64,000 nt of DNA from Barnesiella viscericola DSM 18177. GTDB taxonomy: Bacteria > Bacteroidota > Bacteroidia > Bacteroidales > Barnesiellaceae. A program made the position numbers and the translations under genes. The DNA is taken from assembly GCF_000512915.1 (NCBI RefSeq), contig NZ_CP007034.1, positions 1,612,001 through 1,676,000 on the forward strand, read 5' to 3'. Shown here one piece after another: positions 6,956 through 62,385 of the stretch. A model generated the notes under the pieces. The model was given only the letters and a program-made list of their open reading frames with translations. It was not told where the DNA came from and did not search any database. Positions within the stretch are counted from its first letter, which is position 1, and every line of letters starts with the position of its first letter.

Positions 6956-6957
6956 TC

Positions 6958-8989: not shown

Positions 8990-9031
8990 TTCTGCTATCA
9001 AAAAAAGGGACCAGACTAATAGTACAACAAC

Positions 9032-9221: not shown

Positions 9222-9246
9222 ATTATATTCCTATTCAACCGACCGT

Positions 9247-34530: not shown

Positions 34531-34600
34531 ATAGTCTCAAACGGTGCGATTTGTTTGTCTAAATTACGGTTTTTTCGCTCAAAATCGGAGTTTGTTTGTC
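34508..34600 (+). repeat. Three TTTGTTTGTC direct repeats (left end)
   Basis: Copies lie at 34508-34517, 34550-34559 and 34591-34600. The second is preceded by CGGTGCGA. Matching copies lie at the right end (61998-62007, 62052-62061) and again after it (62189-62198, 62231-62240). Their position on both sides of the core repeat suggests arm-type binding sites for the integrase. Confidence 0.6.
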
Positions 34601-34610
34601 TAAAATACAT

Positions 34611-34618
34611 TACCTTTG
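34611..34618 (+). promoter_or_regulatory. -7 box upstream of the integrase
   Basis: TACCTTTG matches TAnnTTTG. It lies just after the third TTTGTTTGTC repeat and 41 bases before the integrase ATG. Integrase bound to the repeat would overlap this promoter, so autoregulation is plausible. Confidence 0.5.
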
Positions 34619-34658
34619 TTTCTCCTCGGGAATATTAAAAAAAGGAGGAAAAAAGCGT

Positions 34659-36014
34659 ATGGGAAGACCAAAAAGACTATATCCACTTGGCAGATACCGG
34701 CTCCGTGTCCCCAAAGATGCGGAAGCGGACAAAGCTTACCCTGTAGTTTTGGAATATACCTGGAACAGGGAGATTATCCGCAAAACGACAAATGTCTTTG
34801 CAAAAATTGCTGACTGGAATCAGAACGGCAATCAGGGACGAGGCGAATTGCGAGTCAGTTACGGAAGCGAGTATAAACGTCTTAATCAGCTTCTGCTGGC
34901 CCGTGTTGAACGGATTGACAGTCTACTTGCGGAGTATAATGAGAGGAATCCGAATCAGATTACAGCCGAAGTTGTGGCGGGCTTCCTTGCGGACAAGCCG
35001 CTTGCACGGCGAGACCAAGGGAAGGATTTTGTGGAATTTACTTTGGAGCGCCTTTCGTCCGATTACTCCCGAAACAGGATTGGCAGGAGCCGTTATGAAA
35101 ACGGCAAGAGTTGCATGAATATCTTCCAGACCTTTCTACGGGCAACCAAACAAGGGTCCTATCGACCCGATGCAATCTATGTAGGCGATATGACTCCGGA
35201 ACTGCTGGACAGCTACATAGCTTGGCGTAGAGACGTAAAGTTGAACAGTGATGCGACAATTAACCATGCCTTGACGCCGATATTGAAAGCTTGTGCTTAT
35301 GCGAGCGAGATGGGCATGATGGAACCTGCAGTCAATGCCAGGATTCAGGATATGCGTATCGTGTCAAAAGTTTCGCTTTCGGAAGAAGAAGCTGAGTTTG
35401 ATGGCAAAAGTCTGTCCAAAGAGCAAATGTTATCTCTTCTTGAATATTACAAGACATGTCTTGAACCTCGCCGCAAGGAGTTTCTGGAAATGTTCTTATT
35501 TGCTTTCCATGCCTGCGGACTCCGTGTTGTCGATGTGATGACATTACAATGGAAACATATCGATTTTTCCAGGAAAGAGTTGCGGAAAATCATGATTAAG
35601 ACGAACAAACGTCACGTGATTCCACTAACGGAACCTGCCTTGCATATACTGCAGCGGTGGCAGGAGAAACGTGCCGGATGCCGGTATGTATTCAACTTAG
35701 TAAAGGACGATATGGATCTTGATGATGCAGAAGCTCTGTACAAAGCCCGTAACAATGCAACGAAATGTATCAATCAGTCGCTGGCGGTTGTCGGAGAACA
35801 GATAGGACTTCCGTTTACCCTCTCAATGCATGTGGCCCGGCATTCGTTTGCGGTCTTTGCACTGAATAAGGGACTTTCCATGTCGGTTGTCAGTCGTTTG
35901 CTCGGTCATGGAAGTACGGATATCACCGAAAAGGTTTATGCCAAATTCCTGCCCGAAACGCTGTCTGCGGAGATTGCAAAACTAGATGGAGAATTAAGTA
36001 ATCTGACCATATAA
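34659..36014 (+). CDS. int: Tyrosine recombinase, element integrase
   Basis: This 451-residue integrase starts at the ATG at 34659, which has GGAGG ten bases upstream; an in-frame start at 34596 is not supported by a ribosome site. An N-terminal arm-binding domain and a SAM-like core-binding domain precede the catalytic domain. The catalytic residues fall in ACGLRVVDVMTL (Arg), HVARHSFAV (His-x-x-Arg), LLGHGSTDITEKVYAKF (His and nucleophile Tyr). It is next to attL and is expected to integrate and excise the element at the DUF2795 gene. Confidence 0.92.
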   Translation: MGRPKRLYPLGRYRLRVPKDAEADKAYPVVLEYTWNREIIRKTTNVFAKIADWNQNGNQGRGELRVSYGSEYKRLNQLLLARVERIDSLLAEYNERNPNQITAEVVAGFLADKPLARRDQGKDFVEFTLERLSSDYSRNRIGRSRYENGKSCMNIFQTFLRATKQGSYRPDAIYVGDMTPELLDSYIAWRRDVKLNSDATINHALTPILKACAYASEMGMMEPAVNARIQDMRIVSKVSLSEEEAEFDGKSLSKEQMLSLLEYYKTCLEPRRKEFLEMFLFAFHACGLRVVDVMTLQWKHIDFSRKELRKIMIKTNKRHVIPLTEPALHILQRWQEKRAGCRYVFNLVKDDMDLDDAEALYKARNNATKCINQSLAVVGEQIGLPFTLSMHVARHSFAVFALNKGLSMSVVSRLLGHGSTDITEKVYAKFLPETLSAEIAKLDGELSNLTI

Positions 36015-38367: not shown

Positions 38368-38497
38368 CCAATTCCCTAAGGAGTTTAAATCTTTGCATCG
38401 TGATTCTGGTGCGATGTGCACAATCGTACCATATCGTATAATCAGGCTGATGGTCTGAGTGTGCATCAAGACTGTTCGGCCATAATCTGAGAAAAAT

Positions 38498-38827
38498 ATG
38501 GCAAAGAACACGAATGTAGAGAAGCTATGCGACCGGGAATTGCTTGAAAAGATTCTCAGCATAGTGGAGAGACAAGAGAAACTGCCGCCTCCGGCTCATG
38601 AAGGCGGACACCGTCTATATGACAATAAGTCTTTGATGGAGAAATTGAACATCAAAGAAAAGTATCTGAAAAAGTTGCGAGACAACGGCTATCTCGGCTA
38701 CTCGCGTGAAGGTGATAAATACTGGTACACGCAGGAAGACGTAGACCGCTTTCTGCGTCGTTTCCATTATGAAGCTTTCGCTATTGGTGATGAACTTCCC
38801 AAACAGGAAGGAGGTGGCTATGTTTGA
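38498..38827 (+). CDS. Excisionase-like helix-turn-helix protein
   Basis: This 109-residue basic protein has the MerR/HTH_17-type pattern: YDNKSLMEKLNIKEKYLKKLRDNGYLGYSREGDKYWYTQEDVDRFLRR, a helix-turn-helix followed by a wing. Small proteins of this type upstream of DUF3987 genes are common in Bacteroidales mobile elements and may control excision or replication. Its end overlaps the next ATG by 8 bases. Confidence 0.78.
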   Translation: MAKNTNVEKLCDRELLEKILSIVERQEKLPPPAHEGGHRLYDNKSLMEKLNIKEKYLKKLRDNGYLGYSREGDKYWYTQEDVDRFLRRFHYEAFAIGDELPKQEGGGYV

Positions 38828-40319
38828 CACCGTTCATTTGACCAACATGCTTCGTTCGGAAGTGGAAGGCATTCCGGAAACAGGTCTTCCGTTAGATGCC
38901 TTCCCGGACAAGATACAGGAGATTATCCTCAATCTTGCCAGATACGAAAATTTCAATGTGGAATATACTGCGTCTATTGTTCTTTCTGCTGTTGCTACTG
39001 CAATAGGCAACTCTTGTCATATTCGTATAAAGGGCGAGTGGAAAACTTGCCCATCCCTTTACATGATGCTGGTCGGACGTCCTGGGCTCGGAAAGACTCC
39101 TCCCCTCGGTTTTATCTATAAGCCGATTAATGAGTATGATGACCGGCTGCATGAGAAATATAACGAGGAATATGACGAATATGAAAGAGCCATGTCAGCA
39201 GGCAAGCACGGAAGTGACGGGGAAGAACAACTGCTCAAGAAACCGAATTTTGTAACGACGGTCATTTATGACTCCACCCCGGAGGCGATGATGAATATTC
39301 ATCAGCATAATCAGCGTGGGATAACATTGGTAGTCGATGAGATCCTGGCTTTGTTCAATTCCGTCAAAAGGTACAACAGCAAGAACAACCTCATTGAAGA
39401 TCTGTTGACAGCTTATAGCGGACAGCCGTTAAAGATTATCCGCAAATCAGAATCACGCCCTGTTCTAATCAAGAATCCATGTATAAATGTCATCGGTTCA
39501 GTACAGACGAATATGCTGCAGGAAGTATTCCGTGCAGAGTTCCTTGCCAACGGATTGCTTGACCGTTTTCTGTTTGTCTATCCCAAAAACAGAAAGATAT
39601 CCGGATGGAGGCGGGAAGAGCGGAATACAGCCCGTCCTGACATCATGAATCAATGGAGGACAATAATCAACAGAATCCTAAGTATCCCCTGTATCCTTGA
39701 TGACAAGGGTACAACGGTCAATCCCCGTATCCTTACAATGTCTGACGATGCGGAAGAATACTTTTATGAATGGTACAATGGAATTATCGATGCAGTAAAT
39801 GCCATTGAGAATGATGCGGATGTTGAAAGCCGCAAGATGAAACTCAACGGCCATGTAGCACGTCTTGCCCTGTTGTTTCAGGTAATGAAATGGGCTACTG
39901 ATAGTGGAGATATGCAATATATTGAGCGGGACTCCGTAGAATCGGCAATCCGTATGATTGATTATTATGAGGAAACATACAGGAGGATTCAGGAAACCAT
40001 TGTCATAAACAGTATCGGCGAAACGAAAGAAGTCTGGCTCTCCCTGCTAGAAGAGAGATTTACTTCCGGTGATGCTGTTATTGCCGGCAGAAAAGTTGAT
40101 ATGTCCCGACGTACCGTCTATTATGCGCTTGACCAATTATGCCGGCTTAAGCACCCTCTTATAGAAAAGCTTCAGCATGGAGTCTATCGCAAACTTATGA
40201 CAGAAAATACTGATGCACCTTACACTATTGCACTTTCATCTTGTCAAGATACCGTGCAGTCTTCTCAAAGTGCAAAAGTGCAGAGTGCAACCACACTAAA
40301 ATCAGAAGACCATGAGTGA
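38820..40319 (+). CDS. DUF3987 helicase/primase-like protein
   Basis: From the ATG at 38820, with GGAGG just upstream, this is a 499-residue protein. It has the family motif CHIRIKGEWKTCPSLYMMLVGRPGLGKT, where the last part is a Walker A loop, a Walker B-like TLVVDEILALF and a sensor region around NPCINVIGSVQTNML. A winged-helix-like C-terminus (SRRTVYYALDQLCRLKHPLI) ends it. Such proteins accompany mobilisable elements and are thought to help replicate them. It overlaps its neighbours on both sides. Confidence 0.85.
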   Translation: MFDTVHLTNMLRSEVEGIPETGLPLDAFPDKIQEIILNLARYENFNVEYTASIVLSAVATAIGNSCHIRIKGEWKTCPSLYMMLVGRPGLGKTPPLGFIYKPINEYDDRLHEKYNEEYDEYERAMSAGKHGSDGEEQLLKKPNFVTTVIYDSTPEAMMNIHQHNQRGITLVVDEILALFNSVKRYNSKNNLIEDLLTAYSGQPLKIIRKSESRPVLIKNPCINVIGSVQTNMLQEVFRAEFLANGLLDRFLFVYPKNRKISGWRREERNTARPDIMNQWRTIINRILSIPCILDDKGTTVNPRILTMSDDAEEYFYEWYNGIIDAVNAIENDADVESRKMKLNGHVARLALLFQVMKWATDSGDMQYIERDSVESAIRMIDYYEETYRRIQETIVINSIGETKEVWLSLLEERFTSGDAVIAGRKVDMSRRTVYYALDQLCRLKHPLIEKLQHGVYRKLMTENTDAPYTIALSSCQDTVQSSQSAKVQSATTLKSEDHE

Positions 40320-41340
40320 ATACAGATTCCATTTGCAGAAATACTGTCCTGGAAGCAAGACTACTTGTCCGAACTGTGGTAAAAGCCGGTGTTTTGTCAG
40401 GTATATTGATGAACAAGGCAGCATTAGCTTTCCCGCTAATGTCGGTAAGTGTGATCATGAAAACAGTTGTGGCTACCACTATACACCTAAGGAATACTTC
40501 AAGGATAATCCTGATGTATTGGAAATGGATGAGGGAAGCGGCAAGTCACTTCTTTCTGCCCCTTATAAGACGGCAGATAAAACTCCGTCTTGTATTCTCC
40601 CTTCGTATATTCCTTCATCTTATGTGTTAAGGAGTTTGTCACATTATTTAATCAACCCCTTATATCAGTATTTCTGTCATGTATTTGGTGAAAATGAGGC
40701 AAGCAGATTGTTTAAAATGTATCGCATAGGGACATCTTCAAAATGGGGAGGCGCAACGGTTTTCTGGCAGACAGATATAAATGGGCAGGTAAGAACCGGC
40801 AAGGTAATGTGCTATAATGCCGAAACAGGCCATCGGGTTAAAGAGCCTAAGGCTTTTGTCAGCTGGGCGCATTCCGAGTTGAAGTTGCAGGATTTCCATT
40901 TGAAGCAATGTCTGTTTGGAGAACATCTTCTGAAAAATTCATCGTCTCCGGTAATGCTGGTGGAAAGTGAAAAGACCGCTGTTGTAATGAGCCATTTTAT
41001 CCCCGATTTTATATGGCTGGCAACAGGTGGAAAGAACGGTTGTTTCAACAGTGAAGCCATGCAGGTTCTCAAAGGCAGGGAGGTTACTCTCATCCCTGAT
41101 TTAGGAGCGACCGAACAATGGAAAGAAAAGTCTGCTTTGTTGTCTGGAATATGCAAACGGGTTGTTGTGTCCAGTGTCTTGGAATGTACATCCGATGAAG
41201 AGCAACGCAGCCAAGGATTGGACATTGCAGACTTCTTTCTGTATTCACCATCAAAGAGACAGATACTCCATCAGATGATACAACGTAATCCAGCATTGCA
41301 GTTGCTCATTGATGAACTGGATCTGGAACTTATTGAATAG
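40312..41340 (+). CDS. Zinc-finger and TOPRIM-like protein (DUF6371-like)
   Basis: This 342-residue protein has an N-terminal zinc ribbon (CPNCGKSRCF, then CDHENSCGYH), as in DnaG-type primases. A middle part carries YRIGTSSKWGGATVFWQ, and a TOPRIM-like core has VMLVESEKTAVVMSHF and TLIPDLGA. These features suggest a primase-related protein that works with the DUF3987 partner encoded just upstream (8-base overlap). Primase activity is inferred. Confidence 0.78.
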   Translation: MSEYRFHLQKYCPGSKTTCPNCGKSRCFVRYIDEQGSISFPANVGKCDHENSCGYHYTPKEYFKDNPDVLEMDEGSGKSLLSAPYKTADKTPSCILPSYIPSSYVLRSLSHYLINPLYQYFCHVFGENEASRLFKMYRIGTSSKWGGATVFWQTDINGQVRTGKVMCYNAETGHRVKEPKAFVSWAHSELKLQDFHLKQCLFGEHLLKNSSSPVMLVESEKTAVVMSHFIPDFIWLATGGKNGCFNSEAMQVLKGREVTLIPDLGATEQWKEKSALLSGICKRVVVSSVLECTSDEEQRSQGLDIADFFLYSPSKRQILHQMIQRNPALQLLIDELDLELIE

Positions 41341-41369
41341 TAAAGGAACTTGTTCCGAGGATTTATAGA

Positions 41370-41397
41370 AAGTCCTTAACACAATAAGGACTTTTTG
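41370..41397 (+). terminator. Terminator after the replication genes
   Basis: AAGTCCTTA (41370-41378) pairs with TAAGGACTT (41385-41393) and is followed by TTT. It separates the helicase/primase genes from the relaxase gene. Confidence 0.75.
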
Positions 41398-41490
41398 CCT
41401 GGCGGCAATAAAATCCGGTCATTGTCCCGAAGAGCGGACTGGCACAAGAGCAAGCTCAAATATTAATCATTTATCAAAAGAATACCCTAT
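41398..41490 (+). other. Possible oriT region upstream of the relaxase
   Basis: MobV-type relaxases usually nick in the short region just upstream of their own gene. This stretch (with GGCGGCAATAAAATCCGG and GAAGAGCGGACTGG) is the only intergenic DNA there. No nick site is recognised with certainty, so this is a positional suggestion. Confidence 0.3.
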
Positions 41491-43038
41491 ATGAATACAG
41501 ATATTAAACAGGCCATGCATGTCGAAGCCGGGAAGTCATTCGGCACAGCAGAGGCGAATGAAAACGAAAGGCATTGGAATGACGACAAGATTGACAGAAA
41601 GAATCAGGATCCGACCAATCACTATGACAAGACCCGAATGAAACTGAATTTCGAGATTGGGCCCGATGGGAAAGTTCATCCGTTAGGCTATCAAGAGAAA
41701 TCGCTTGAAGTACGTTTGCAGGAACGGTTGACTGAACTGGGCTGGAAACCCTTCAAGCCGGACAGCAAAATTCAACCAAACTGTTGTGCGAAATTTATTT
41801 TTGGAGGCAATCATGACCGTACACTTGAGATGGCATTTGGAACCCAAACCGTAAATCTGGGAAAGGGTGCAGATAACAGTCATCTCCAGCGATGTCCGGA
41901 AATCGAACAATGGGCAAAAGATGTCTATGACTGGTGCGCCAAACGGTACGGACAGGAAAACATCATCGGCTTCCAGATTCATCTTGATGAGAGCAGCCCG
42001 CATATCCATGCCTTGATCGTTCCTATAGGCCAACGAGCCAAAAGCGGACGCGAATGCGTCATGTGGTCGGCAAAGTTCGGCAAGAGCCGTTATGGGTATG
42101 GCCATATTCTTCGGGAAATGCACACCTCACTATATGAAGAGGTAGGGAGCAAGTACGGGCTGGAACGTGGGGACAGTATTGAAGGACGGAACGTCAGCCA
42201 TCTTAGTAAACGCGATTATATCCGGAAACTGTCCAAAGATGCTAAACAGGCGGAAAAAGCAGTCAAGGGACTGCAGACTATGACACGGAGGTTGGAAGCA
42301 CAGATATTCAGGTCTCAATCCCAACTTGAAGAAATAGAGAAGTCTCTGGCTTCCGGCAAAATCGCTCTTCAGGAATATGAAATTCAAAAGACCAGGATAC
42401 AAAAACAGATTTCCGAATACCAGTCCAAACTTGAAGACAAGGCGTGTAAGCTTCAAGAAAAGGAGCAGAAACTGGAGCAGATGACAAAGAATATAGACCG
42501 TGTCAGTAGAGTGGCGCAACCTTTCCGCAATCACAAGATAGATTTTGAGCCGCCACGGATCACTGGCAAACCTCCGATATTCGGTGTTGACAAATGGATT
42601 GAGGAGCAGAACAGGTCTATCGCCAGCCGATTCGTAAAGATTGTCCGTCAGATTGAAGAACTGTATCGTAAGGATGCCGAACAGCAAATACAGGCGGTGC
42701 GGAATAATACGTTGCTGGACTATCGGGAGCTTAAATGGCTACAACAGGAGTATGCACGACTGACGGATCTCAACGATAATCAGACTGAACAAATGCAGAC
42801 GTTTCTTGACCAGCTGGCTGAGCCTTCTTTGCGGGAACGAATCTTTTCTATCGCTGATGCTTTGATTGGTGGGCAACCTGTCGCTGTTTCATCCGGCGGA
42901 GGTGGTGGTAACTCCGATTCAGACCTCCGCTGGGACGGAAGAAGGCCAGATGAGGAGGAAGAGGCGTATAAACGACGATGTATAAAAACCGCATTAGAGG
43001 TGTCAATGAAAAATAAACATAGTTACCGAAGAAGATAA
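41491..43038 (+). CDS. mob: MobV/Pre-type relaxase
   Basis: This 515-residue mobilisation protein has the MobV N-terminus (HVEAGKSFG, then RHWNDDKIDRKNQDPTNHYD) and the metal-binding motif HLDESSPHIHALIVPI (H164, D166, E167, H171, H173). A long coiled coil follows (about 250-330). It would cut one strand at oriT and lead it into a helper conjugation channel. The ATG lies 150 bases after the TOPRIM-like gene. It ends just before the silent hsdS cassette. Confidence 0.92.
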   Translation: MNTDIKQAMHVEAGKSFGTAEANENERHWNDDKIDRKNQDPTNHYDKTRMKLNFEIGPDGKVHPLGYQEKSLEVRLQERLTELGWKPFKPDSKIQPNCCAKFIFGGNHDRTLEMAFGTQTVNLGKGADNSHLQRCPEIEQWAKDVYDWCAKRYGQENIIGFQIHLDESSPHIHALIVPIGQRAKSGRECVMWSAKFGKSRYGYGHILREMHTSLYEEVGSKYGLERGDSIEGRNVSHLSKRDYIRKLSKDAKQAEKAVKGLQTMTRRLEAQIFRSQSQLEEIEKSLASGKIALQEYEIQKTRIQKQISEYQSKLEDKACKLQEKEQKLEQMTKNIDRVSRVAQPFRNHKIDFEPPRITGKPPIFGVDKWIEEQNRSIASRFVKIVRQIEELYRKDAEQQIQAVRNNTLLDYRELKWLQQEYARLTDLNDNQTEQMQTFLDQLAEPSLRERIFSIADALIGGQPVAVSSGGGGGNSDSDLRWDGRRPDEEEEAYKRRCIKTALEVSMKNKHSYRRR

Positions 43039-43108
43039 TTTATCAAGGTGTGCCGTATCGAATATTTATAGCGCACCTTATTTTTATTATGATTAAAATT
43101 TACATTAC

Positions 43109-43140
43109 ATACGCCCCATTATGAGAATGTGCCGTTTGAA
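43109..43140 (+). repeat. Inversion repeat 1 (silent copy) of the hsdS switch
   Basis: This stretch (ATACGCCCCATTATG then GTGCCGTTTGAA) matches 48448-48479 in inverted orientation with only two or three differences. In both places it encodes TPHY-x-NVPFE, the junction between the conserved HsdS N-terminus and the first target-recognition domain. Recombination here would move a new pair of domains behind the expressed start. Confidence 0.75.
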
Positions 43141-44313
43141 GTGCCTGAAGGATGGGTATGGTGTAAACTTGGAGATCTGGCCTTTTATAAGAAAGGTCCA
43201 TTTGGAAGTAGCCTTACAAAATCAATGTTTGTTGCTCAAAGTGATAATACTTATAAAGTATACGAACAAAAGAATGCTATTCAAAAGGATCATAAGCTTG
43301 GTTCGTATTTTATTTCCAAAGAAAAATATGAATCTTTAATAAGCTTTGCTGTTCAGCCCAACGATATTATCGTCAGTTGCGCAGGAACTATCGGAGAAAC
43401 ATATGTTTTGCCTGAGAATATTCGGGAGGGAATTATCAATCAAGCACTAATGCTAATTCGTTTGTATCATCGAGATATAGAACGCTTCTATTTGCTTTAT
43501 TTTGATTTCATTCTCAAAGAAGAAGCTTATAAAGAAAGTAAAGGTACAGCTATTAAGAATATTCCTCCTTTTGATATTCTTAAAAATTTCTATATACCAC
43601 TTCCTCCACTTGCAGAACAGCAGAGGATTTTAGATGAAGTGGACAATTGGATGTCGTTAGTTGATTCTATTGATAGTAATAAAGAGCATTTAGAGAGCAT
43701 CATCAAGCAAACCAAAAGTAAGATTCTTGACCTTGCCATACATGGAAAACTAGTACCACAAGACCCTAATGACGAGCCTGCTTTGGATCTGCTTAAACGT
43801 ATAAATCCTAACTTCACACCTTGTGATAACGGGCATTATACGCAGTTACCTGTAGGATGGTGCAAATGTCTATTAGAAGACATAGTTAAATACGAACAAC
43901 CTCAAGCCTATATTGTCAATTCAACTGATTATAATGACAGCTATTTGACTCCTGTTTTAACTGCCGGGAAGTCTTTTATTATAGGATACACTAATGAGAC
44001 AGAAGGTATTTATCAGAATACGCCTTGTATCATTTTTGATGACTTTACCACAGATTCCAAACTTGTTGATTTTCCCTTTAAGGTAAAATCATCTGCCATG
44101 AAAATCCTAAAAGTGACAGACGATATAGAAATTGAATATGTTGCTATGTTTATGAGCATAAAACGACTTATTGGCGATACTCATAAACGTTATTGGATTT
44201 CAGAATACTCTAAACTTTGCATACCAATACCACCAAAAGAAGAACAAAAGCGTATAATCAATATTGTAAAGATGGCGTTTAAAAAACTTGACGCAATAAT
44301 GGAGAACTTATAA
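43129..44313 (+). CDS. hsdS: Silent HsdS specificity cassette with two recognition domains
   Basis: This open frame lacks the conserved HsdS N-terminal region and any start signal, beginning mid-protein at PHYENVPFEVPEGW. It encodes a first target-recognition domain (to about residue 165, ending PLPPLAEQQRIL), the central spacer helix (IIKQTKSKILDLAIHGKLVPQDPNDEP), a second domain starting NGHYTQLPVGW and a final helix ending LDAIMENL. It is oriented opposite to the expressed hsdS and would be read only after inversion at 43109-43140 and 48448-48479. Confidence 0.82.
   Translation: MPFEVPEGWVWCKLGDLAFYKKGPFGSSLTKSMFVAQSDNTYKVYEQKNAIQKDHKLGSYFISKEKYESLISFAVQPNDIIVSCAGTIGETYVLPENIREGIINQALMLIRLYHRDIERFYLLYFDFILKEEAYKESKGTAIKNIPPFDILKNFYIPLPPLAEQQRILDEVDNWMSLVDSIDSNKEHLESIIKQTKSKILDLAIHGKLVPQDPNDEPALDLLKRINPNFTPCDNGHYTQLPVGWCKCLLEDIVKYEQPQAYIVNSTDYNDSYLTPVLTAGKSFIIGYTNETEGIYQNTPCIIFDDFTTDSKLVDFPFKVKSSAMKILKVTDDIEIEYVAMFMSIKRLIGDTHKRYWISEYSKLCIPIPPKEEQKRIINIVKMAFKKLDAIMENL
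43819..43845 (+). repeat. Second recombination site (GATAACGGGCATTATACG)
   Basis: The sequence at the start of the second recognition domain recurs inverted at 44782-44796 (silent half cassette) and, with two changes, at 46243-46260 in the interrupted hsdS. It is placed to exchange only the second domain. Confidence 0.65.
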
Positions 44314-44331
44314 AATCTCCATTATTGTATC
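44296..44331. repeat. Inverted repeat where two hsdS cassettes converge
   Basis: CAATAATGGAGA and TCTCCATTATTG meet around the overlapping stop codons of the rightward (LDAIMENL) and leftward (LDTIMEIL) cassettes. It follows from the shared 3' ends of hsdS and could serve as a terminator or as a third recombination site. Confidence 0.55.
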
Positions 44332-44800
44332 CAGTCTGCTATACATTGAATTTATTGCAGCAACGATTCTTACTTGTTCCTTATAAGGAGGTACAGGTAC
44401 TTCTATTGCCTTAAATAGTTTTTTATCTAGGTGAGGTATTGCCGAACCTACTTTATTCTCTCGCAATGCTTTACGATGTAGATTTATAACATGTAAGATA
44501 TATTCTGCAAACATGTTTTTATTGATATGTAGTTGCTTGAATGTGCTACCTTGATAACCTTCAATCTGCGTTCTGAACACTTCTCCAGAGTTTTCTCCAT
44601 CAACTAAAATCAATAGGCTATTGGCTACTACATATCGTCCATTTGTCAAGGTCTTAAAGTCCCGTTCTCCTCTTAGATATTTTACGTCAAGGTTTGGCAT
44701 TTCTTTACCATCAAGTTTTTCTCCATCCGTCAAAGAACATAGCATTTGCATTGGAGCTACTACCCACCCAATAGGCAAGTTCGTATAATGCCCGTTAGGT
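44308..44800 (-). pseudogene. Silent half HsdS cassette (one recognition domain)
   Basis: A leftward open frame encodes one target-recognition domain. It starts within NGHYTNLPIGW at the recombination site, continues through a domain with SLTDGEKLDGKEM and PVPPYKEQVRIVAAINSMY, and ends LDTIMEIL. It has no start codon context or promoter. It is a donor for the second domain position of HsdS. Confidence 0.75.
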
Positions 44801-44844
44801 TGCGCTTTATATTGTTATCGTATTCATCAAAAACAAAAACTGAT

Positions 44845-45648
44845 ATGATAACAAAATTTAATGACTATCTTGCCAAAACAAACTTGGCAAAGAACACAGT
44901 GGCTTCGTATGTATGGACAGTGAACTACTTTTTCAGTCACTATGGGGAAGTGAACAAGAAAAACCTGTTGGCATACAAAGGATACTTGGTTGAAAACTTT
45001 AAGCCTCAAACCGTAAACCTTCGGCTACAGGGTATTAATAAGTATTTGGAATTTTCCAAGCATGATAGACTGAAGGTAAAGTTTGTCAAAGTGCAGCAAA
45101 AGAACTTCTTAGAGAATGTTATCAGCGATGCCGACTACAAGTTTCTGAAAGCACAGTTAAAGGCCGATGGTTATGAAGATTGGTATTTCGTGGTATGGTT
45201 TATGGCGGCGACAGGTGCACGGGTAAGTGAACTGTTGCACATAAAGGTTGAACATGTGAAGGTGGGTTATCTAGACCTTTATAGTAAAGGTGGTAAGGTG
45301 CGTCGTTTATACATCCCCAAAAACTTGCGAAGCGAGGCTTTGCAATGGTTGAAAACGAAAGGTATTACAAGCGGTTATCTTTTTCTCAATCGTTTCGGAC
45401 AACGCATTACAACACGAGGTATTGCCCAGCAACTTAAACATTTTGCCGATAAGTATGGACTGAACCGTGATGTTGTTTATCCTCATTCTTTCCGCCACCG
45501 CTTTGCCAAGAACTTTCTTGACCGTTTCAACGACCTTGCATTACTTGCCGACCTTATGGGGCATGAAAGTATTGAAACTACTCGCATCTATCTGCGGCGT
45601 ACAGCTAGCGAACAACAAAAGATTGTTGACAAGGTTGTAAATTGGTAG
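44845..45648 (+). CDS. Tyrosine recombinase of the hsdS switch
   Basis: From the ATG at 44845 this is a 267-residue protein. It has a SAM-like N-terminal domain (NLAKNTVASYVWTVNYFFSHYG) and a catalytic domain with ATGARVSELLHIKVEH (Arg), PHSFRHRFAKNF (His-x-x-Arg) and MGHESIETTRIYLRR (Tyr). It is much smaller than the element integrase and lies between hsdS cassettes, the usual place of the invertase in Bacteroidales type I shufflons. It should catalyse inversion between the repeats at both hsdS copies. Confidence 0.88.
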   Translation: MITKFNDYLAKTNLAKNTVASYVWTVNYFFSHYGEVNKKNLLAYKGYLVENFKPQTVNLRLQGINKYLEFSKHDRLKVKFVKVQQKNFLENVISDADYKFLKAQLKADGYEDWYFVVWFMAATGARVSELLHIKVEHVKVGYLDLYSKGGKVRRLYIPKNLRSEALQWLKTKGITSGYLFLNRFGQRITTRGIAQQLKHFADKYGLNRDVVYPHSFRHRFAKNFLDRFNDLALLADLMGHESIETTRIYLRRTASEQQKIVDKVVNW

Positions 45649-46393
45649 CATAAGATCTTAGAAGCGTATTTTCCTACGCTTCTAAGGCTTTTTGAATGTT
45701 GTCAAGAGTTGAAAATAACTCTTCTATTCTTGCAACGATACGTTGCTGTTCTGCAAGAGGAGGTAAGAAGATTTGCATCTTTTCTAAACCCCCAATATAT
45801 AATTCTTTTTGGTTTGTACTTCCTGCAAGGTTCTTTTCCATATACTGTTGTATAGAATCAGAAGATATATAAGCATAAATATACTGAGGACAAATACTTT
45901 TTAACACTCTTACGACAGAAACATGTGAATCAGGAACTACAAATGGATAGTTGCCCAAGCAATTTGTATTAAACAATCTTGTTCTTCCAACAGTGCCAGT
46001 ACCCGTTGAATTTACAAGGATATCCCCAGTTTGTAATTTGTAAACTTCATTCCACTTGTTGATAGTAGAAGGATCTAAAAATCTTGCTTGCTCTAATGAT
46101 ACGTCACCATCTTTTAGATTACATTTTTGAGCAAATACTGGGTATGTTTTATCGTCTTCCGAGTATTTGGGTGATTTTCCTCTTGACAAGAAAGAACATA
46201 TATCAACCAATTTGCAGGCACACCAATTTTTAGGAATATTCCTATACTGCCCGTTATCACAAGGTGTGAAGTCAGGATTTATGCGTTTCAATAGCTTGAT
46301 AGCTGGTTCTTCGTTCGGGTCTTGTGATACGAGTTTACCGTGAATGGCGATGTCAAGAACTTTGCTCTTGGTTTGCTTGATTATGGTTTGTAA

Positions 46394-47907
46394 CACTGCT
46401 GTCCGGAGAAGATTCTCCAAAGCAGCTATTATTAATTAATACTCAACTGGTTACGAGGATAATAAAATTTTTCGATTAGAAATCATAGTTTTGCAAGAAG
46501 GTATAAACAGCCAATTCTGCAAACTATGAACAAAGGAAAAACAATATTTGCACAGGTTATGTCTCTTATAAACACATACGAATTCACTAGTGTCCGGAGA
46601 AAAATTCTCCGACAAGGGTTTAATTATTAAACATCAATAATGTTATAAGCATTAGAAAATTTTTCGATTAGAACATCAGTAACTTTGCGGTAGCCATCAA
46701 GAGGTTATCCGCAAGCCATGAACAAAGGAAAAACAATCTTCGCTCAGATTATGTCTCTCATTAACGAATACGAGTTCAAGAAATGTGTCGACCGCTACAA
46801 AGGTGACCGGCATGCTATCAAATTCAATTGTCGTGACCAGTTCATGGTGATGAGTTTTGCACAGTTCACTGACAGAGCTGGTTTGAGAGATATAGAGACT
46901 ACACTTAACCTCTGCGGCGACCTCTATCGCTCCGGAATCAAGGCAATACCTCGATCCACGCTTGCGGAGGCCAATGAGAAGAAGGATTGGCGTATATATC
47001 AAGACTTTGCGATGACTTTGGTAAAGGAAGCCACGATGCTTTACAAGGATGAAAAGCTGCGAATTGGTCTTGAGGAGATGATATATGCGTTTGACAGCAG
47101 TACCATTGAACTGTGTCTTAAGTTGTGTCCATGGGCCGAGTTTCATCATGGTAAGGGCGCGTTCAAGATACATACACTGATGGATCTGCGAGGCTCGATT
47201 CCCACATTTGTCATGCTCACGCCAGGCAAGGTTAACGATGCCAGGATGATGGACAAGATTCCTGTTGAAGCAGGTGCTTTCTACCTGATGGATAGGGGAT
47301 ATGTTGCCTTTGAGAAACTTTACAAGCATTTCCAGCAAAAGGGCGCCTACTTTGTTACACGCGCCAAGGACAATATGTCTTATGAGGTTATTGAGTCCAG
47401 ACCTGTCAATAAAGACTCGGGCGTTCTTTCGGATGAGACTATCAGACTTGCTGGATATTACTCTACCAGAAAGTATCCAGACACATTGAGACTTGTTGTG
47501 TATGAAGACTTTGAGACTGGAAGAGTATATCGATTTCTGACCAGCAACTTTGCGATTGACGATCCGCTGACTATTGCGGAACTCTACCGTGAACGCTGGC
47601 TGATAGAACTGTTCTTCAAATGGATCAAGCAGCATCTTCACATCAGGACTTTCTACGGCACTTCCAAGAACGCCGTGTACACGCAGATATGGATAGCCAT
47701 TTGTGACTATCTGCTGCTCATCATTGCGAAGAAGCGATACGGGTTGGATCCAAGTCTTCATTCTATCTCTAACTCAATCGGACAAGTCCTCTTCCAGAGG
47801 GCGGATATCCGTGAAATTTATAATCAGCCGACAACTCCCGTTTGTGTTCCGGAGGCGGGTTCTGTCGAGCAACCTACTTTATGGTAAAATTTCTCCGGAC
47901 AGCAGTG
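46394..47907 (+). mobile_element. IS4-family element, copy B, inside hsdS
   Basis: The element has the same 1514-bp composite structure as copy A, with the same inverted ends. It is flanked by the 9-bp duplication GGTTTGTAA (46385-46393 and 47908-47916). It is inserted antisense to hsdS within the central spacer-helix region. Confidence 0.9.
46718..47887 (+). CDS. IS4-family transposase, copy B
   Basis: This 389-residue transposase is identical in translation to copy A, with the same DDE and Y-(2)-R-(3)-E-(6)-K motifs. An antisense open frame of 354 codons runs over it in both copies and is a shadow. Confidence 0.92.
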   Translation: MNKGKTIFAQIMSLINEYEFKKCVDRYKGDRHAIKFNCRDQFMVMSFAQFTDRAGLRDIETTLNLCGDLYRSGIKAIPRSTLAEANEKKDWRIYQDFAMTLVKEATMLYKDEKLRIGLEEMIYAFDSSTIELCLKLCPWAEFHHGKGAFKIHTLMDLRGSIPTFVMLTPGKVNDARMMDKIPVEAGAFYLMDRGYVAFEKLYKHFQQKGAYFVTRAKDNMSYEVIESRPVNKDSGVLSDETIRLAGYYSTRKYPDTLRLVVYEDFETGRVYRFLTSNFAIDDPLTIAELYRERWLIELFFKWIKQHLHIRTFYGTSKNAVYTQIWIAICDYLLLIIAKKRYGLDPSLHSISNSIGQVLFQRADIREIYNQPTTPVCVPEAGSVEQPTLW

Positions 47908-48447
47908 GGTTTGTAAGTCTAATTTTTCCTTTTCTATTTGGTCTAGTAAAGCAAACCAATGTTCAATCTCGGTAACTATGCGTTGCTGTTCAGTTAAAGG
48001 TGGCAAAGGAAAATACATCTGTTCTAAATTGTATTTTGGCAAACCTTCACGACCACTACCCGTAATCTTCATAGATTTAGTAAAGTATGAAGATAAAACT
48101 AACGCATGGAAATATTCAGGTTCAACTAAAACAGAACGCATAATACAAACGTGTTGACTGACATTGCCACAATTAAAATCAGCAGGAACTACGGCACATC
48201 TTCCCAATGAACCTCCAGTAATATTCAACAACAAGTCGTTAGCAAGAACTTCCGTACCTTTCATCTTCTGATGAACTTCTTCGGAAATATACTTGATGTC
48301 ATCATAAACAAGCCTGTCATTATATACATTTTGCGATCGGAAAAAAGGAATCCCTTTCACAGAATAGTTACTTCCTCTTGGTGTACTACCGGAACCTATC
48401 TTTGAGCATATTTCTTCAATTGTTGTCCACACCCAATTATCGGGTAT

Positions 48448-48479
48448 TTCAAACGGCACGTTCCCATAATGGGGCGTAT
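48448..48479 (-). repeat. Inversion repeat 1 (expressed copy) of the hsdS switch
   Basis: This is the inverted partner of 43109-43140, at the boundary between the constant HsdS N-terminus and the first recognition domain. The 5.3 kb between the two contains both silent cassettes, the recombinase and IS copy B. Confidence 0.75.
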
Positions 48480-48688
48480 CAGAAGTCTTTGCAGACTTCT
48501 TGCTCCGCTTGATTTTGCCTTCCTTTATCAGTCGTTCTTTTTCAGCCTTGATTCGTTCGAGCAGAATTGATGCAGGCTCATCATTTGGATCCTGCGGTAC
48601 GAGTTTGCCGCGAATGGCAAGATCTAGTATTTTTTGACGTAATATTTTGGTATCCACTACTCTTTAATTTCTTGCGGTTTGTTAAATA

Positions 48689-49720
48689 ACGTGAGTTCGA
48701 TATAAATTAAAACATCGTGAGTTGTCCGTCTTTGACAAAACGTACGTCAATGGCGGGCTTCTTTTCAAAGAAGCAGTATGCAGCTATGGCAGAGAGCGAG
48801 TTGGCAATAAAGTTATTGAAGGAACGGTGTCTGGAGTGTTCAATCTGGGCGATGTTCTTTAACTCGTCATTGACTGTTTCAATCAAAGCACGTTTTCTCA
48901 GCAGGATTTTGTCCGCTATGCTCATCAGGGAGTTCTTCATGTTGTTCTTCACTTTGGTTATCAACTGTATGCCGTTAAGAAATAGGTTCTCGAACAAGGT
49001 TTGCCCGATATACCCCTTGTCCGCACACAGTTTGCCCTTGATGTTCTTCAGGAACTTTGTCTGTTTCAGCGGTTCACGGTCATCCACATTTCCCGGAGTA
49101 AACATGAAATTGAGAATTTCACCCTTATCGTTGATGATCAGGTGAAGCTTAAACCCGAAGAACCATCCCATGGAGCATTTTCCACGTTCGGCGAGACCCT
49201 TAAAAGTCTTGTGAATCAATATGCGTTGGTTTCGGCATACACGCAGCGGTGTGGAATCCACAAAGCTGATACCGGTACAAGTACCCAACAGGACTTCCTT
49301 GATGAAAATGGTCAGCTGCAGCAGGACTTCCTTTTCCAGTTCTACAAAACGGTTATAGGACACACGTCTGGGAAAGAGATGCGTCAGATGTTTGCATACA
49401 TATTCTTTGTAGTAATGCTTGAAACATCTGAAGCCTCCCGAGTGGAACAGGACTAGGATGACCATGATTTCCGCATCACTCATCCGGTTCGGCTTATTCC
49501 GATGCTTATGATTCTTGTCTTCAACCATATATTTTTCCTGTGTTTTGGCAAATTCCTTGCAAAAATCATCCGCCATACAAAAAATCTCCGTAACTTTAGC
49601 CTCTGAGAACATAGTGGTAGTCGCTTAAATGTTATAATTGAGCACTATAAATTTAATGCTTTTATCGCTATGTTCCTAATTTTCAAACTGATAATTTCAA
49701 TCTTTATATCGAACTCACGT
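48689..49720 (-). mobile_element. IS982-family element (1032 bp)
   Basis: Ends read ACGTGAGTTCGATATAAA and its reverse complement, flanked by the direct repeat TAAATA (48683-48688 and 49721-49726; an adjoining T makes 7 bp possible). It lies between the GmrSD-like gene and hsdS. Reading across the gap without it joins IFN to KPQEIKE and a stop that overlaps the hsdS GTG. Confidence 0.87.
48707..49612 (-). CDS. IS982-family transposase
   Basis: This 301-residue DDE transposase has the family pattern RMSDAEIMVILVLFHSGGFRCFKHYY, the first Asp in ISFVDSTPLRVC, the second in KLCADKGYIGQ and the final Glu in KRALIETVNDELKNI. It appears complete and so the element may be active. Confidence 0.92.
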   Translation of the reverse strand: MFSEAKVTEIFCMADDFCKEFAKTQEKYMVEDKNHKHRNKPNRMSDAEIMVILVLFHSGGFRCFKHYYKEYVCKHLTHLFPRRVSYNRFVELEKEVLLQLTIFIKEVLLGTCTGISFVDSTPLRVCRNQRILIHKTFKGLAERGKCSMGWFFGFKLHLIINDKGEILNFMFTPGNVDDREPLKQTKFLKNIKGKLCADKGYIGQTLFENLFLNGIQLITKVKNNMKNSLMSIADKILLRKRALIETVNDELKNIAQIEHSRHRSFNNFIANSLSAIAAYCFFEKKPAIDVRFVKDGQLTMF

Positions 49721-51509
49721 TAAATATAAAATTACAGATTCTATCGGCTGCTTTCCGATTTGCAAATTCGATATCATTCTTTCCCCATGAATCAGATGGA
49801 TATGAAGACAAGGATGTTGCTATACCAAAACTACTTCCAACATATCCTTTTTTGTCTTGCACAAGTGTTCCTTTCTTTGTTTTAAACCAATCCCTCCCAA
49901 TATACTTATTGATATCTTCCTCCAATAAAATTTTGTTTCCTAGAAGGTTGACCATATCATCAAATTCCTCTAATGTCATCTGGGCATCAGCACGAATAGC
50001 GTCTATGTTATGCCCACTTGCAGGCATAATGTGCTCTACATTGACTTTATCTTGGACAAAGTCAAAATGTAATTTATGTTCCCTAGCATAAATATATTCA
50101 TTAAGGTAAACCAAAATATTTTTATCGTATTCTTTAAGGTCTGCAATTACATCTTCTTCTTTCCAAACAGAATTAATATGGGAATCGAAATCTTCGATAA
50201 TTTTGTCTATCGAATAATTTGGATCAACTAATTTAAAATTTTCATTGAAAAGGAATGTTTTGAAATAACGTGAGGAGAAACCAAAATCTCCAACTTCAAG
50301 AAGTGCGAACAACCGAAGCAAGCATTCCATGATTGGCGTGATATCACGCTCTGATATTTTTTCCTCAGGAATTCTATAAAGGTAAGAAATAAGAAACAAT
50401 TTGAAGTTTTCATTAAACTTCAACAGTAGTTTTGTAATTGGAAACCCTTGGATCTTGTCCCATATCCTTAAAATTTTGCTGAAATTATTGCATATTTTGA
50501 TAGGATCTTCTAAAAGCTCTGGATACAGGACTGTATAGTATTTTCTTACACCTGGCGTTGTCAGCTGGCCTTCCTCATATTGATGTTCTTTGGAACGATT
50601 TATATACATAAATTGTTGAAGCACACTATCAATATTGACGATTCTCTTTTGGCTTAATTCGTCAGCTTTATGTATTATAGGCTCCCAAATTTCTTTAAAG
50701 TTCGCTTTATTGGGTGCATGAGAAAAAAGGTGTGCAGATATGATATCTGCATCAGACAAAGGCATGCCAGTTGAATTCAGTGAATTAAACATCGTTATAG
50801 CTTGCTCAATCTGCCAACTTTTAATTTCTATGATCTGACACTTATTTAGGAAGCCATTGGCCAATACATCAAGATTTGATTCTTGATAAACGAGCAAACG
50901 CTCATAGAATGATTTAAAATTACGGAAAAAATTGGTGTATTTATTGTCTTTTTGTTTTCGAGGAAACTTATAAACCATTTTTTCTGCATCAGCAAAAGTC
51001 TTGGCTTCGATTATATTTTTCAATTCATTTTTATGAAGTTCGTTGATGGATACATTTTCTATGATTTGCACTCCTTTGGCTTTATCCCAGTTTTTCTCAA
51101 TTTCTATCTGTTTTCTCACATCTGCCCGATATAAAATTTCAAATATTGAATCCAAACTTTGCTGTAAACTTCTCCTAAGTCCTGCAGCCTCTTCGGTGTC
51201 AGCCATATTGTTTAGAATTTCAGTTATTCTCAAATGCATGGCTTTGAGAAGGAGTAGAAACGTTGTCGTTCTTTGTTGCCCATCTATTAGATTCAGGTAA
51301 CCTTTCATTGAACAATCAATAATGATTGTTCCAAAAAAATACGGATCTTCAGCGTCTTGATCTATATAAGATTCGATATCTTGCCACAACTTATCGCAAT
51401 TTGATATATTCCAAGAATATGCTCTTTGATATTCAGGAATACGAAAAATGTCTGTTTTTTTCAGATAAGCTCCAATAGTTTGTAGTTTCGGTTCTATTTC
51501 TTTTGCCAT
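49704..51509 (-). CDS. GmrSD-like DUF262/DUF1524 protein with C-terminus altered by IS982
   Basis: This 601-residue protein has the DUF262 (ParB-like) N-terminal domain with IPEYQRAYSW (24-33) and the nucleotide-binding signature DGQQR (76-80). A C-terminal DUF1524 HNH-type nuclease follows, with VEHIMPASG (H493) and LLGNKILLEE. Such fusions form type IV enzymes that cut modified phage DNA. The last four residues (VSSI) are encoded by the IS982 end; the original ended NKPQEIKE, with its stop overlapping the hsdS start. The change affects only the tail, so activity may remain. Confidence 0.85.
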   Translation of the reverse strand: MAKEIEPKLQTIGAYLKKTDIFRIPEYQRAYSWNISNCDKLWQDIESYIDQDAEDPYFFGTIIIDCSMKGYLNLIDGQQRTTTFLLLLKAMHLRITEILNNMADTEEAAGLRRSLQQSLDSIFEILYRADVRKQIEIEKNWDKAKGVQIIENVSINELHKNELKNIIEAKTFADAEKMVYKFPRKQKDNKYTNFFRNFKSFYERLLVYQESNLDVLANGFLNKCQIIEIKSWQIEQAITMFNSLNSTGMPLSDADIISAHLFSHAPNKANFKEIWEPIIHKADELSQKRIVNIDSVLQQFMYINRSKEHQYEEGQLTTPGVRKYYTVLYPELLEDPIKICNNFSKILRIWDKIQGFPITKLLLKFNENFKLFLISYLYRIPEEKISERDITPIMECLLRLFALLEVGDFGFSSRYFKTFLFNENFKLVDPNYSIDKIIEDFDSHINSVWKEEDVIADLKEYDKNILVYLNEYIYAREHKLHFDFVQDKVNVEHIMPASGHNIDAIRADAQMTLEEFDDMVNLLGNKILLEEDINKYIGRDWFKTKKGTLVQDKKGYVGSSFGIATSLSSYPSDSWGKNDIEFANRKAADRICNFIFNVSSI

Positions 51510-51569
51510 ACAGATTCTATTTAATTTAGAGATTGGTTATTTAAAGTTTTTCCATCTGATTTTTTTGAA

Positions 51570-54815
<3,246 letters not shown>

Positions 54816-54817: not shown

Positions 54818-57522
54818 TTATGCTGCTTTTCTTAAAACTACAAATGTGTATAGAGAGTGTAAAGCTTCGTTAGCTTTCTGCATATTGCCAAAGGCACGGA
54901 TCATCTGTGCAGCCTGAGTTGCATCATCTTCACGAATCTCTTTGATTGTACAAGCTCCGTTGGAAGCAATATAATCTACAATACGACTGATGACTTCACG
55001 TTGTTTATCTGTTATTTCGCGCTGGTTTTGTCCTAACCATAGATTGAAATACTGTTTAGATGTAGAAACAACACTATCTAACCGCTCAATTTGGTGTAAA
55101 GCAAAACGTACAAGCTGTATGATATTAGTCAAAGCATCGCTCTCCTCTTTTGTAGAAGAACGTCGAACGCTATTTGGATTCAGAATGGCATATGAGTTCC
55201 ATAATTGCTTGGAAGTAAAATGATTGTTAGCCATCTTGAGTTTGTTTTCCAAATCTTTTAGCATTGAATAGGTAATTGGCTCACCTTCATTATTATAAAT
55301 TATACGTAGAGCTTCTATTTCATCACTATGTTCTTTGCAAAAATCTTCAAAGGCTTCTGTGGTACTTTTAGCTTCTTCTATTGAAAAACCTTTAGATATA
55401 AGCGTGTCTTCACCAGGCATTAGTGTGTTGACAAACCCGGCAGCAAGAATAAGCAGATATCGACGCGCATCTGCATGATTTGCAAGCGGAGCTACTAAAC
55501 CTTTCCGTTCGTTATTAGGCTCTTTAGTACTTATGAATGGCGGCAGAATATTGTTTTCAAATGCTTCGTAAATCCTTGAAGCAAGTTCTTTCATGTCGTC
55601 ATTTGCTAAACGTACGAACTCAGTTCGCTGTGAATTATCAGCTTTGTTATATATTCTGGAAAGTGTTGCAGCAAGACGTTTCAGATGCTCGTCAGGAAGG
55701 TAACCATGGGTAATCTGTTCCAACAGCTCTTTAAGAGTAATAATCTTTGTAGTCGGCTCATCAGTTATCGTAGGTATTGTTTTTTCGTGTTCAGTAACAC
55801 CTACGGCATCTATCAAATAGAAACAATCTTTACTAAACGCATTTGGGGTAACATTCCGTAACTGCTCATCTCCAATTGTGCGTACACCACGTCCTTTCAT
55901 CTGTATATAGAGCGGTAAAGATTCTACATCACGCATGAAAATCAATACTTCAAGAGGCTTAACATCTGTACCAGTTGCTACCAATGTGCAAGTTACGGCA
56001 ATTCTGAAATCCTTATCATTCCGGAACTGACGTATCAATTCATTACTATCGCCCGCGGAATAAGTTATTTTTTGCACGAAACGGTCATCTGTATGTCCAA
56101 ATACCTCTTTAGTTATCTGTACGATATTACTGGCATGAGTCTCATTTAGAGCAAAGATCAAAGTCTTTGGCAGATAGTCAAAATTTGCTTCTCGCTGTGG
56201 ATCATTGAACAACTCGGTATAGACGACATCGCGATAAGTGGAGAGAATAAGTTTTATTTGCGCAGGGTTAATGACACTTCTGTTTAGCTCTTTATTGGTA
56301 TATGTTTTCGTTTCTTTATTGGAAATGGTTTTTACATCTCCGGTATAACGTGTTTCTTCTTTGATTTTTTCTCCTTCTAATATAGCTCCGCCATTTTCTG
56401 TAACCTGAGTTTTGATTCGATATACGCGGCAATCTACATTTACACCATCAACGATACTTTTCTCCAATGTGTAGTTGACTATGCGATTATTGTTAAAGAA
56501 TGCCATTGTTTCAGGAATTGGCGTGGCTGTCAGTCCTACAAGTCTGGCTGTATCAAAATATTCCAATACCTTACGCCAATTCCCATAAATGGAGCGGTGA
56601 CACTCATCTATGATAATCAAATCAAAGTAATCATGTGGTAAATTGGGATTAGGAGGCAATACAACTTCTTCTGTAGGCTCATTATCATCGTCGTTGTCAT
56701 TATCCTCAATAGAATCTCCTTTCAGAAAAGAAAAAAGACGCTGTATTGTTGAAATAACGACATTACTATCAGATGGTATAGAAGAGGAACGAAGACGATT
56801 CACTGTAAATATTGTATTGAATGCATCTCCATTTTCTGTCAGTCGAAAAGTTCCAAATTCTCCCTCTGCCTGTTTCCCGAGGTTATTTCTGTCCACAAGA
56901 AATAACACTCTTCTCATTGGAGTATATGAAAGAAGACGATATGCAGCAAGACATGCGGTATATGTTTTACCTGCACCTGTAGCCAAAACCATCAAGGCGC
57001 GATTCTGCCCACTCCTGAAACTTTTTTCCAGTTCAGTAACTGCCTCATACTGACAATCACGTAATCCTTTTTTTCGCAAAGTTGGGAGTCCGGCAAAATA
57101 ATCATTTATTCCCAACAGCTTAACCAATTCATGAGGAGTTGGAATCGTCATAATTTGCTTGAAACAAGAATCCTGTTTACGAAAGTCACAGAAGTACAAG
57201 TCTTTCCCATTTGAAGTAAATATGAAAGGCAAAGGCTTTTGGTATACTTGATAGATATTAGGAACATTCCGGGCATATAAAACAGCCTGTTCGCACACAG
57301 TATTGGAAAAAGGATCTATCTCTTCTCTTTTGGCCTCAAGCACACCTACAGCTTTTCCATTAATAAAAAGAAAATAGTCAGCCTCTAGGTTACCTTTTAA
57401 AAGTCCTTCCCTTATGGCTACAGCAGTACAGTTTGGTTCGTAGTTGTCTCTATCAACCACTTTCCATCCAGCATCAGTAAACCACTGATCTATTTTTGCC
57501 TCGCTTTTTCTTCTGGTGTCAT
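54818..57522 (-). CDS. hsdR: Type I restriction subunit HsdR, with a frameshift near its start
   Basis: The main frame (from a GTG at 57460, 880 residues) has the nuclease motif ADYFLFINGKAVGVLEAKRE (Asp, E-x-K), the helicase loop LATGAGKTYTA, DECHRSIYG, TATP and later helicase motifs. Upstream, an ATG at 57522 with AGGA before it starts MTPEEKARQK, the usual HsdR N-terminus, but the frame hits TAG at once. One extra A in the five-A run at 57493-57497 would join it to IDQWFTDAGWKVVDRDNY. The gene is therefore out of frame by one base, or starts late and lacks about 21 residues. Confidence 0.88.
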
Positions 57523-57587
57523 ATATTCCTATATTTTTATATTATCGGAAGTTGCATACTAGAAAAATAACATCTACAAAGAACGAA

Positions 57588-62210: not shown

Positions 62211-62348
62211 TATTGCCTTATATAGTGCGGTTTGTTTGTCTAAAATACATTACCTTTGTTTATCATCGAAAAAGCAGGACCTTCTATGCAGGAACTGACT
62301 AGATATGGCGAAAAACTATGTAAAGAAAATTCAGAAGATCCAAGTTTT

Positions 62349-62380: not shown

Positions 62381-62385
62381 CATAT

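Follow-up and report, generated by a model that had tools for sequence, protein, structure and literature searches.

A probable PsrA-type inverting hsdS system with a split expression gene on a putative integrative element of Barnesiella viscericola

Barnesiella viscericola DSM 18177 carries a type I restriction–modification locus in which the specificity gene, hsdS, is accompanied by silent copies in opposite senses and by a tyrosine recombinase gene. Here, we analyze the 64,000-nucleotide stretch at positions 1612001–1676000 of this single-contig, 3.08-Mb genome (the window; coordinates below are window positions unless a relative is named). We consider it highly probable that the locus is an inverting hsdS system of the PsrA type and that it resides on an integrative element. 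A preliminary description of the same DNA proposed an inverting hsdS system with its own recombinase. That proposal stands, on three grounds: the inverted arrangements among relatives, the side of the recombinase on which the hsdS start lies, and the identity, within each locus, of a short core in the recombination sites. The expression copy of hsdS is split by an insertion sequence (IS), and a stored cassette beside it is open.

Inverted repeats and inverted arrangements among relatives

The expression-site hsdS lies on the minus strand. Its first half-subunit module (47908–48657) comprises the start, the conserved head, the first target-recognition domain, and the following helix, and its second module (45674–46393) comprises the central conserved region and the second target-recognition domain. 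Downstream of the hsdS end at 45674 come the recombinase gene (44848–45648, plus strand), a silent half cassette holding a second domain only (44308–44797, minus strand), and a full silent cassette (43109–44313, plus strand), which begins at the first-domain repeat and holds both domains without the conserved head. Each hsdS piece is an open reading frame. Of the one expressed and two silent domain sets described earlier, all three are present. The silent sets are unequal, however, and the expressed set is broken, running from 48657 to 47908 and from 46393 to 45674 around an IS4-like element (46394–47907). The small tyrosine recombinase reported between the sets is indeed there: it has 267 residues and matches PF00589 (E 1.5e-23). 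It is 100% identical to its counterpart in Muribaculum sp. An289 (locus L037) and, over residues 5–267, 67% identical to the recombinase at a Streptococcus pneumoniae hsdS locus (L105), which we infer from its place and its 15-bp repeat to be PsrA. On the PF00589 match and the likeness to the L105 enzyme, we assign the window's recombinase to the PsrA family.

Inverted repeats lie before and between the domains of the opposite-sense sets. The first-domain repeat, inverted repeat 1 (IR1), joins 43109–43140 (plus strand, silent copy) to 48448–48479 (minus strand, expression copy) with 30 of 32 bases matching, 15 of them in one exact run; the preliminary description gave the same coordinates. The second-domain repeat, IR2, has three copies. 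Copy L, in the full cassette (43811–43842, plus strand), reads ATAA-CGGGCA-TTAT; copy H, in the half cassette (44782–44797, minus strand), matches L at 16 of 16 bases; copy R, in the expression-site gene (46241–46272, minus strand), has the core of L and the right arm GTAT instead of TTAT. The earlier account of the second-domain repeat survives in part: the match is exact over 16 bases (43827–43842/44782–44797), but the wider stretch 43819–43845/44779–44805 agrees at only 18 of 27. The longest exact inverted match among the hsdS copies, 25 bases between L and R (43811–43835/46248–46272), was absent from that account. The two IR1 copies lie in the same codon phase, and the three IR2 copies likewise agree in theirs. 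By estimate rather than computation, an exact inverted 15-mer would be expected by chance well below once in such a stretch. Because conserved coding sequence alone could yield such inverted matches, the covariation test presented below is the better control. The ATAA-N6-TTAT layout is one that we take to be reminiscent of the Xer dif site.

The targets that we propose for the recombinase are short sites in which a variable core has TA to its left and usually TTAT to its right. IR1 marks the head of the first domain, and the IR2 copies L, H, and R mark that of the second. Inversion at IR1 would place a different complete pair of domains after the one hsdS start. Inversion between L and H would swap the stored second domains, and inversion between L and R would pair first domains with other second domains. 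Two first domains and three second domains would, in this scheme, give six specificities.

Relatives provide snapshots of such inversions. Our search of genome contigs for recombinase relatives gave 136 stretches matching a pattern, of which 96 encode relatives; we kept the best 80, which by record title are mostly from Bacteroidales, with Treponema and Streptococcus also represented. DNA comparisons were made for six chosen locus pairs. Against L037, the flanks 38399–43163 (96.2%) and 49719–54156 (98.9%) are collinear with the window and the inner part, 43700–46362, is inverted at 97–98% identity; the first domains are unrelated, so this comparison cannot separate an IR1 inversion from an L × R inversion. 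Against L042, 43827–44797 is inverted at 88.6%, and the ends of the inversion fall on the 16-bp repeats. Loci L057 and L058 have outer parts that are 99.9% and 99.3% identical and an inverted inner part (97.0%), with the break inside an exact inverted match of 50 bases whose end lies in the IR2 core. L056 and L115 differ by two inversions, both kinds at once. In the comparison with L044, the operon side and the recombinase side are opposite in sense, and the comparison with L038 gave mixed short matches. The inverted configurations are thus seen between relatives, not within the window's strain.

Counts over larger sets of loci agree with these pairs. Among 35 sequences, the hsdS start lies only to the left of the recombinase in 17 and only to the right in 16, while 2 have a start on each side; the segment that bears the recombinase thus occurs in either sense with respect to the operon. 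We also counted the slots occupied by relatives of individual domains at 60% identity or more. Second domain T2b occupies slot L in 10 and slot H in 8 of 20 cases, and T2c occupies L in 8 and H in 9 of 17, the interrupted T2c of L037 having fallen under the coverage limit. First domain T1a lies to the left in 2 and to the right in 4, and T1b to the left in 5 and to the right in 2; the window's own first domain, T1a, was counted as a right first-domain slot after its label was corrected by hand, as the IS separates it from the central region. This distribution is what L × H and L × R inversions of the recombinase-carrying segment would give. The window's own second domain, T2a, is found in slot R in all five second-domain slots counted. 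Relatives of T2a also occupy two first-domain slots (L038 at 7069 and L049 at 7618), hinting at movement between slots.

Agreement of the site core within loci

The core consists of four bases, at offsets 5–8 of GATAACGGGCATTAT, preceding the right arm. Across loci, the IR2 core varies: CGGG, CGCG, CGAG, CGGA, ATCG, CTCA, CAGG, and CCCA all occur. Within a locus, it is nearly constant. Specifically, L and H are identical in 29 of 33 loci (shuffled mean 7.0), H and R in 30 of 33 (5.9), and L and R in 34 of 35 (5.8); for each of the three site pairs, the observed base count was reached by none of 5000 shuffles, which ignore the kinship of loci. In choosing H, 9 of 46 candidates were dropped for want of arms. 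With H chosen solely by its arms, regardless of the core, 37 of 48 loci yielded an H site, 9 of them more than one candidate, and the counts were unchanged (29/33 and 30/33). One candidate reading was that R is a dead site (TAGT/GTAT for TTAT), leaving only three states. We rejected it, given the L–R core identity and the L × R inversion by which L057 and L058 differ.

IR1 behaves likewise. The six bases before TTAT are identical in 24 of the 26 loci (shuffled 9.7) that remained after 9 of 35 had been dropped for want of a matching silent site, and in the two misses the search had taken an IR2 site. In all 26, the IR1 core differs from the IR2 core, and a single enzyme would therefore carry out two distinct reactions. 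The data fit a core that serves as the strand-exchange region and also separates first-domain from second-domain reactions.

In principle, inversions to which the recombinase is irrelevant could arise from general homologous recombination, or from gene conversion, between conserved regions. The conserved regions at L and R match at 133 of 173 bases, including the exact run of 25, and the L057/L058 break lies somewhere within its 50-base match. Moreover, recombination at spnIII is reported (PMC6620402) to be independent of all known pneumococcal site-specific recombinases. However, agreement between H and R that is better than shuffled is confined to offsets 4–8, and yet in 30 of 33 loci the two have the same core; the L × H inversion relative to L042 ends on the 16-bp match; and the recombinase is kept between cassettes, with hsdS on the plus strand to its left and on the minus strand to its right, in 44 of the 58 sequences with both flanks, the window included. 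We judge this explanation very improbable and favor site-specific inversion by the locus's own recombinase.

Several observations nonetheless weigh against that preference. The unrelated first domains of L037 are one, and the 2 of 20 T2b relatives that lie right of the recombinase in an unassigned slot are another. The shuffles' disregard of kinship is a third. Core mismatches occur, at 4 of 33 L–H, 3 of 33 H–R, and 1 of 35 L–R pairs. Better-than-shuffled agreement extends downstream of the core between L and H and upstream of it between L and R, and only in the H–R pair is it confined to the core; such additional agreement is as expected of related coding sequence. The right arm CATTAT is present at 38 of 41 L sites versus 16 of 42 R sites, the arm of R being often changed, while the constancy of the H arms, a selection criterion, is uninformative. 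Finally, 11 of the other 14 sequences with both flanks, and thus 11 of 58 recombinase loci, have no hsdS match with the queries used, although one has hsdS by Pfam.

The recombinase relatives with no hsdS match by these queries include L064, L070, L072, L073, L082, L093, and L103. We considered whether such relatives shuffle other gene families and saw no case among 10 neighboring proteins from 7 loci without an hsdS match. Seven of those neighbors belong to non-hsdS families, including an efflux pair, an rRNA methylase, a kinase, a CoA-transferase, and an amidohydrolase; two have no family and one is hsdS (L111).

The split expression gene and its stored neighbor

The preliminary description took the current set for an intact expressed gene, and this part of it fails. 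Because hsdS is split by the IS4-like element (46394–47907; 1,514 bp; transposase at 46718–47887, plus strand; family name by judgment), no full-length HsdS is encoded at the window's expression site. The element has a 17-bp terminal repeat, CACTGCTGTCCGGAGAA, and is flanked by a 9-bp target duplication, TTACAAACC, at 47908–47916 and 46385–46393. Judged from the intact L044 protein, to which the first module is 88% identical, and from that protein's internal repeat, the split falls approximately 1–2 residues before the second half-subunit module. Six full copies of the element exist in the genome, this one counted. Within the element, the transposase start recurs as a partial second copy (46516–46586; 83% over 71 bases), which lies in the part common to all six; two further copies of the element, at 99%, begin just after this repeat.

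A second, IS5-like element (approximately 48678–49731; DDE transposase at 48707–49612, minus strand; family again by judgment) sits between a GmrSD-like gene and hsdS. Its ends are 29 bp with 86% complementarity, it has eight near-identical genomic copies, this one counted, and it is not present at the corresponding place in L037. Each of the two IS elements has copies elsewhere in the genome that it matches at 100%, so both insertions look recent. That both are repeated in the genome also raises the question of assembly error, in which the IS elements or one inversion state were misjoined. The target duplication is clean and the element ends are exact, however, and we find misassembly hardly credible.

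A whole hsdS at the expression site, a matter of whether the system works and not of the family to which it belongs, is therefore lacking: the frame there is only 277 amino acids, while 37 of 45 sequences, the window counted, have a frame of at least 370. The window is not among the 37. In addition, the region of the hsdR start used by relatives (57440–57560) is out of frame in the window, leaving an internal GTG as the only opening of hsdR. In 35 of 37 sequences, the window counted, a start lies 15 or more codons upstream of that point; the exceptions are the window and L065. On reading the sequence around the hsdR start, we saw no long tract of the kind expected for a phase-variable repeat.

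The split gene and the hsdR without its usual start both count against a functioning switch, and because of them the locus may be decaying: once inverting, it would now be frozen and inactive after two IS insertions, one just upstream of hsdS, and the loss of the hsdR start. Set against this are a recombinase that is full length and 100% identical to that of L037, a stored cassette that is open, intact cores at the IR1 and L × H sites, and the recent look of both insertions. Decay is a possibility that we take seriously but regard as unlikely. We prefer a PsrA-type system that would still be capable of switching in this strain. Specifically, the stored cassette has an open frame that, across IR1, continues the frame of the hsdS start, so an IR1 inversion would put a whole gene in place of the split one. 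Stored cassettes are not exempt from such damage. In L037, the second domain of the half cassette is broken by approximately 2.6 kb (about 6074–8708 of that locus), with the two matches overlapping by 7 bases, and therefore insertions into stored cassettes also occur. At the level of titles and abstract openings, we found no published case of an IS-split inverting hsdS.

It is possible that the split gene is itself active in the form of half-subunits, with the first module self-pairing on a new palindromic target or the two halves pairing with each other. The IS sits at the boundary between the modules, and both halves are open frames. A structural model of the first half has a mean pLDDT of 77.5 and a pTM of 0.63; its recognition domain is mostly above 90, and the model matches 14 PDB chains at E 0.001 or better, mostly type I or related specificity subunits, three of them named Esub1. 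There are precedents, namely an EcoR124I deletion, EcoDXXI carrying Tn5, and NgoAV, and co-expressed halves restored EcoDXXI (passages of PMC3874165). These precedents, however, are all type IC according to the same source. Furthermore, the conserved head is modeled only at approximately 57–76, the 28-residue tail coded by the IS has low confidence, and the model is of a single chain. On balance, we deem half-subunit activity in this strain quite unlikely. A bolder version, that the IS has added states to the system, namely free half-specificity subunits (a self-paired first half or paired halves) together with an inversion that restores the whole subunit, we would call a long shot. If it were true, the system would switch between one-chain and split-chain specificity proteins, with the split gene parked in silent form.

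The operon, its carrier, and known systems

On the minus strand, the gene order is hsdR, a small gene, hsdM, a DUF1016/YhcG nuclease gene, the GmrSD-like gene, the IS5-like element, and hsdS. Judged by co-orientation only, hsdR and hsdM belong to the same operon as hsdS. The hsdR frame (54818–57460, minus strand) matches the Pfam families ResIII, EcoEI_R_C, and HSDR_N. The hsdM frame (52723–54153, minus strand) matches the NCBIfam models TIGR00497 hsdM (E 2e-19) and NF047738 (E 2e-30), all matches to NCBIfam methyltransferase models scoring below the curated cut-offs. The small gene between them has no family match in Pfam or NCBIfam. Between hsdM and hsdS, 49704–52733 is occupied by the nuclease gene (51570–52733, minus strand; PF06250, E 3e-49, and PF17761) and the GmrSD-like gene (49704–51509, minus strand; PF03235, E 3e-35, and PF07510).

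The system lies within a putative integrative element of 27,672 bp (34590–62261) bounded by 32-bp direct repeats (34590–34621 and 62230–62261), which are presumably its attachment sites. An integrase gene (34596–36014) is at the left end, and a MobV relaxase gene (41491–43038) is inside. Over 38399–54156, the putative element is largely shared with L037, in which 38399–43163 and 49719–54156 are 96–99% identical and the integrase end is 82% identical, the L037 stretch compared reaching only to window position 54156. Of eight other genomes in the genus, none has a full-length relative of the recombinase; in the order, 5 of 393 sampled genomes have one, this one counted. Because of this scatter, the switch was probably gained with the putative integrative element; we set vertical descent aside in favor of horizontal gain. 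A PG0870-related gene is also on the putative element, as is an 840-residue gene (59454–61976) with S1-like matches below the cut-offs. Just beyond the right end, an open reading frame (62305–63297) resembles, by eye, a Dam-type methylase.

The closest known counterpart is the S. pneumoniae cod/SpnIII (Spn556II) system with PsrA/CreX, which, as passages of PMC4948785 describe, shares with the window hsdR–hsdM, one hsdS with a start, and opposite-sense silent copies, one of which is a single second domain. Beyond its recombinase, L105 shares a 15-bp exact inverted repeat of the ATAA-N6-TTAT layout. A 15-bp PsrA repeat has been reported in pneumococcus, and IR1-like sequences lie within longer pneumococcal repeats (parts of PMC4948785 and PMC7096588). 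There are differences: the half-cassette site of L105 (9838) is on the other side of its recombinase (9001–9786), the pneumococcal IR2 and IR3 are 298 bp and 85 bp whereas the window's repeats are short, and the window adds the putative integrative element, the GmrSD-like and DUF1016 genes, and the IS-split expression gene.

Other systems are comparable. Inverting hsdS loci in REBASE (Atack et al. 2020, PMC7394358, in part) likewise have duplicated hsdS, with inverted repeats ahead of the domains and between them; a recombinase accompanies some of these loci, which are put there at 3.9% of type I systems. The Bacteroides fragilis NCTC 9343 shufflon (BF1839–1842) has inverted hsdS domains, an adjacent tyrosine integrase, and eight combinations; unlike the window, it has four repeat sets, one of them a 38-bp repeat that by eye does not resemble the window's sites (passages of PMC3090145). 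Prevotella intermedia ATCC 25611 undergoes hsdS inversion with fragments and several motifs, but its fragmentation is by frameshift, not IS, and neither "recombinase" nor "integrase" appears as a word in the main text of PMC5608340. EcoDXXI with Tn5 in hsdS, and NgoAV, resemble the window in that a transposon or natural break leaves half an HsdS; they differ in being type IC with measured activity (PMC3874165, in part), whereas the window is known from sequence and its break is at the module boundary. Overall, comparison gives good support to a system of known kind, to which the window appears to add a class-specific core and, next to an intact store, an active copy that is split.

When a type I system switches specificity, the set of methylated sites changes, as does the foreign DNA that it blocks, and inversion at this locus would have such consequences for its host. 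The window places a switch of this kind on a putative mobile element, and the types of inversion become visible by comparison across species. A short core that differs by site class would be a simple rule for how one recombinase avoids scrambled products. Finally, the IS-split copy would serve as a natural experiment on the rescue of a broken active gene by a stored cassette.

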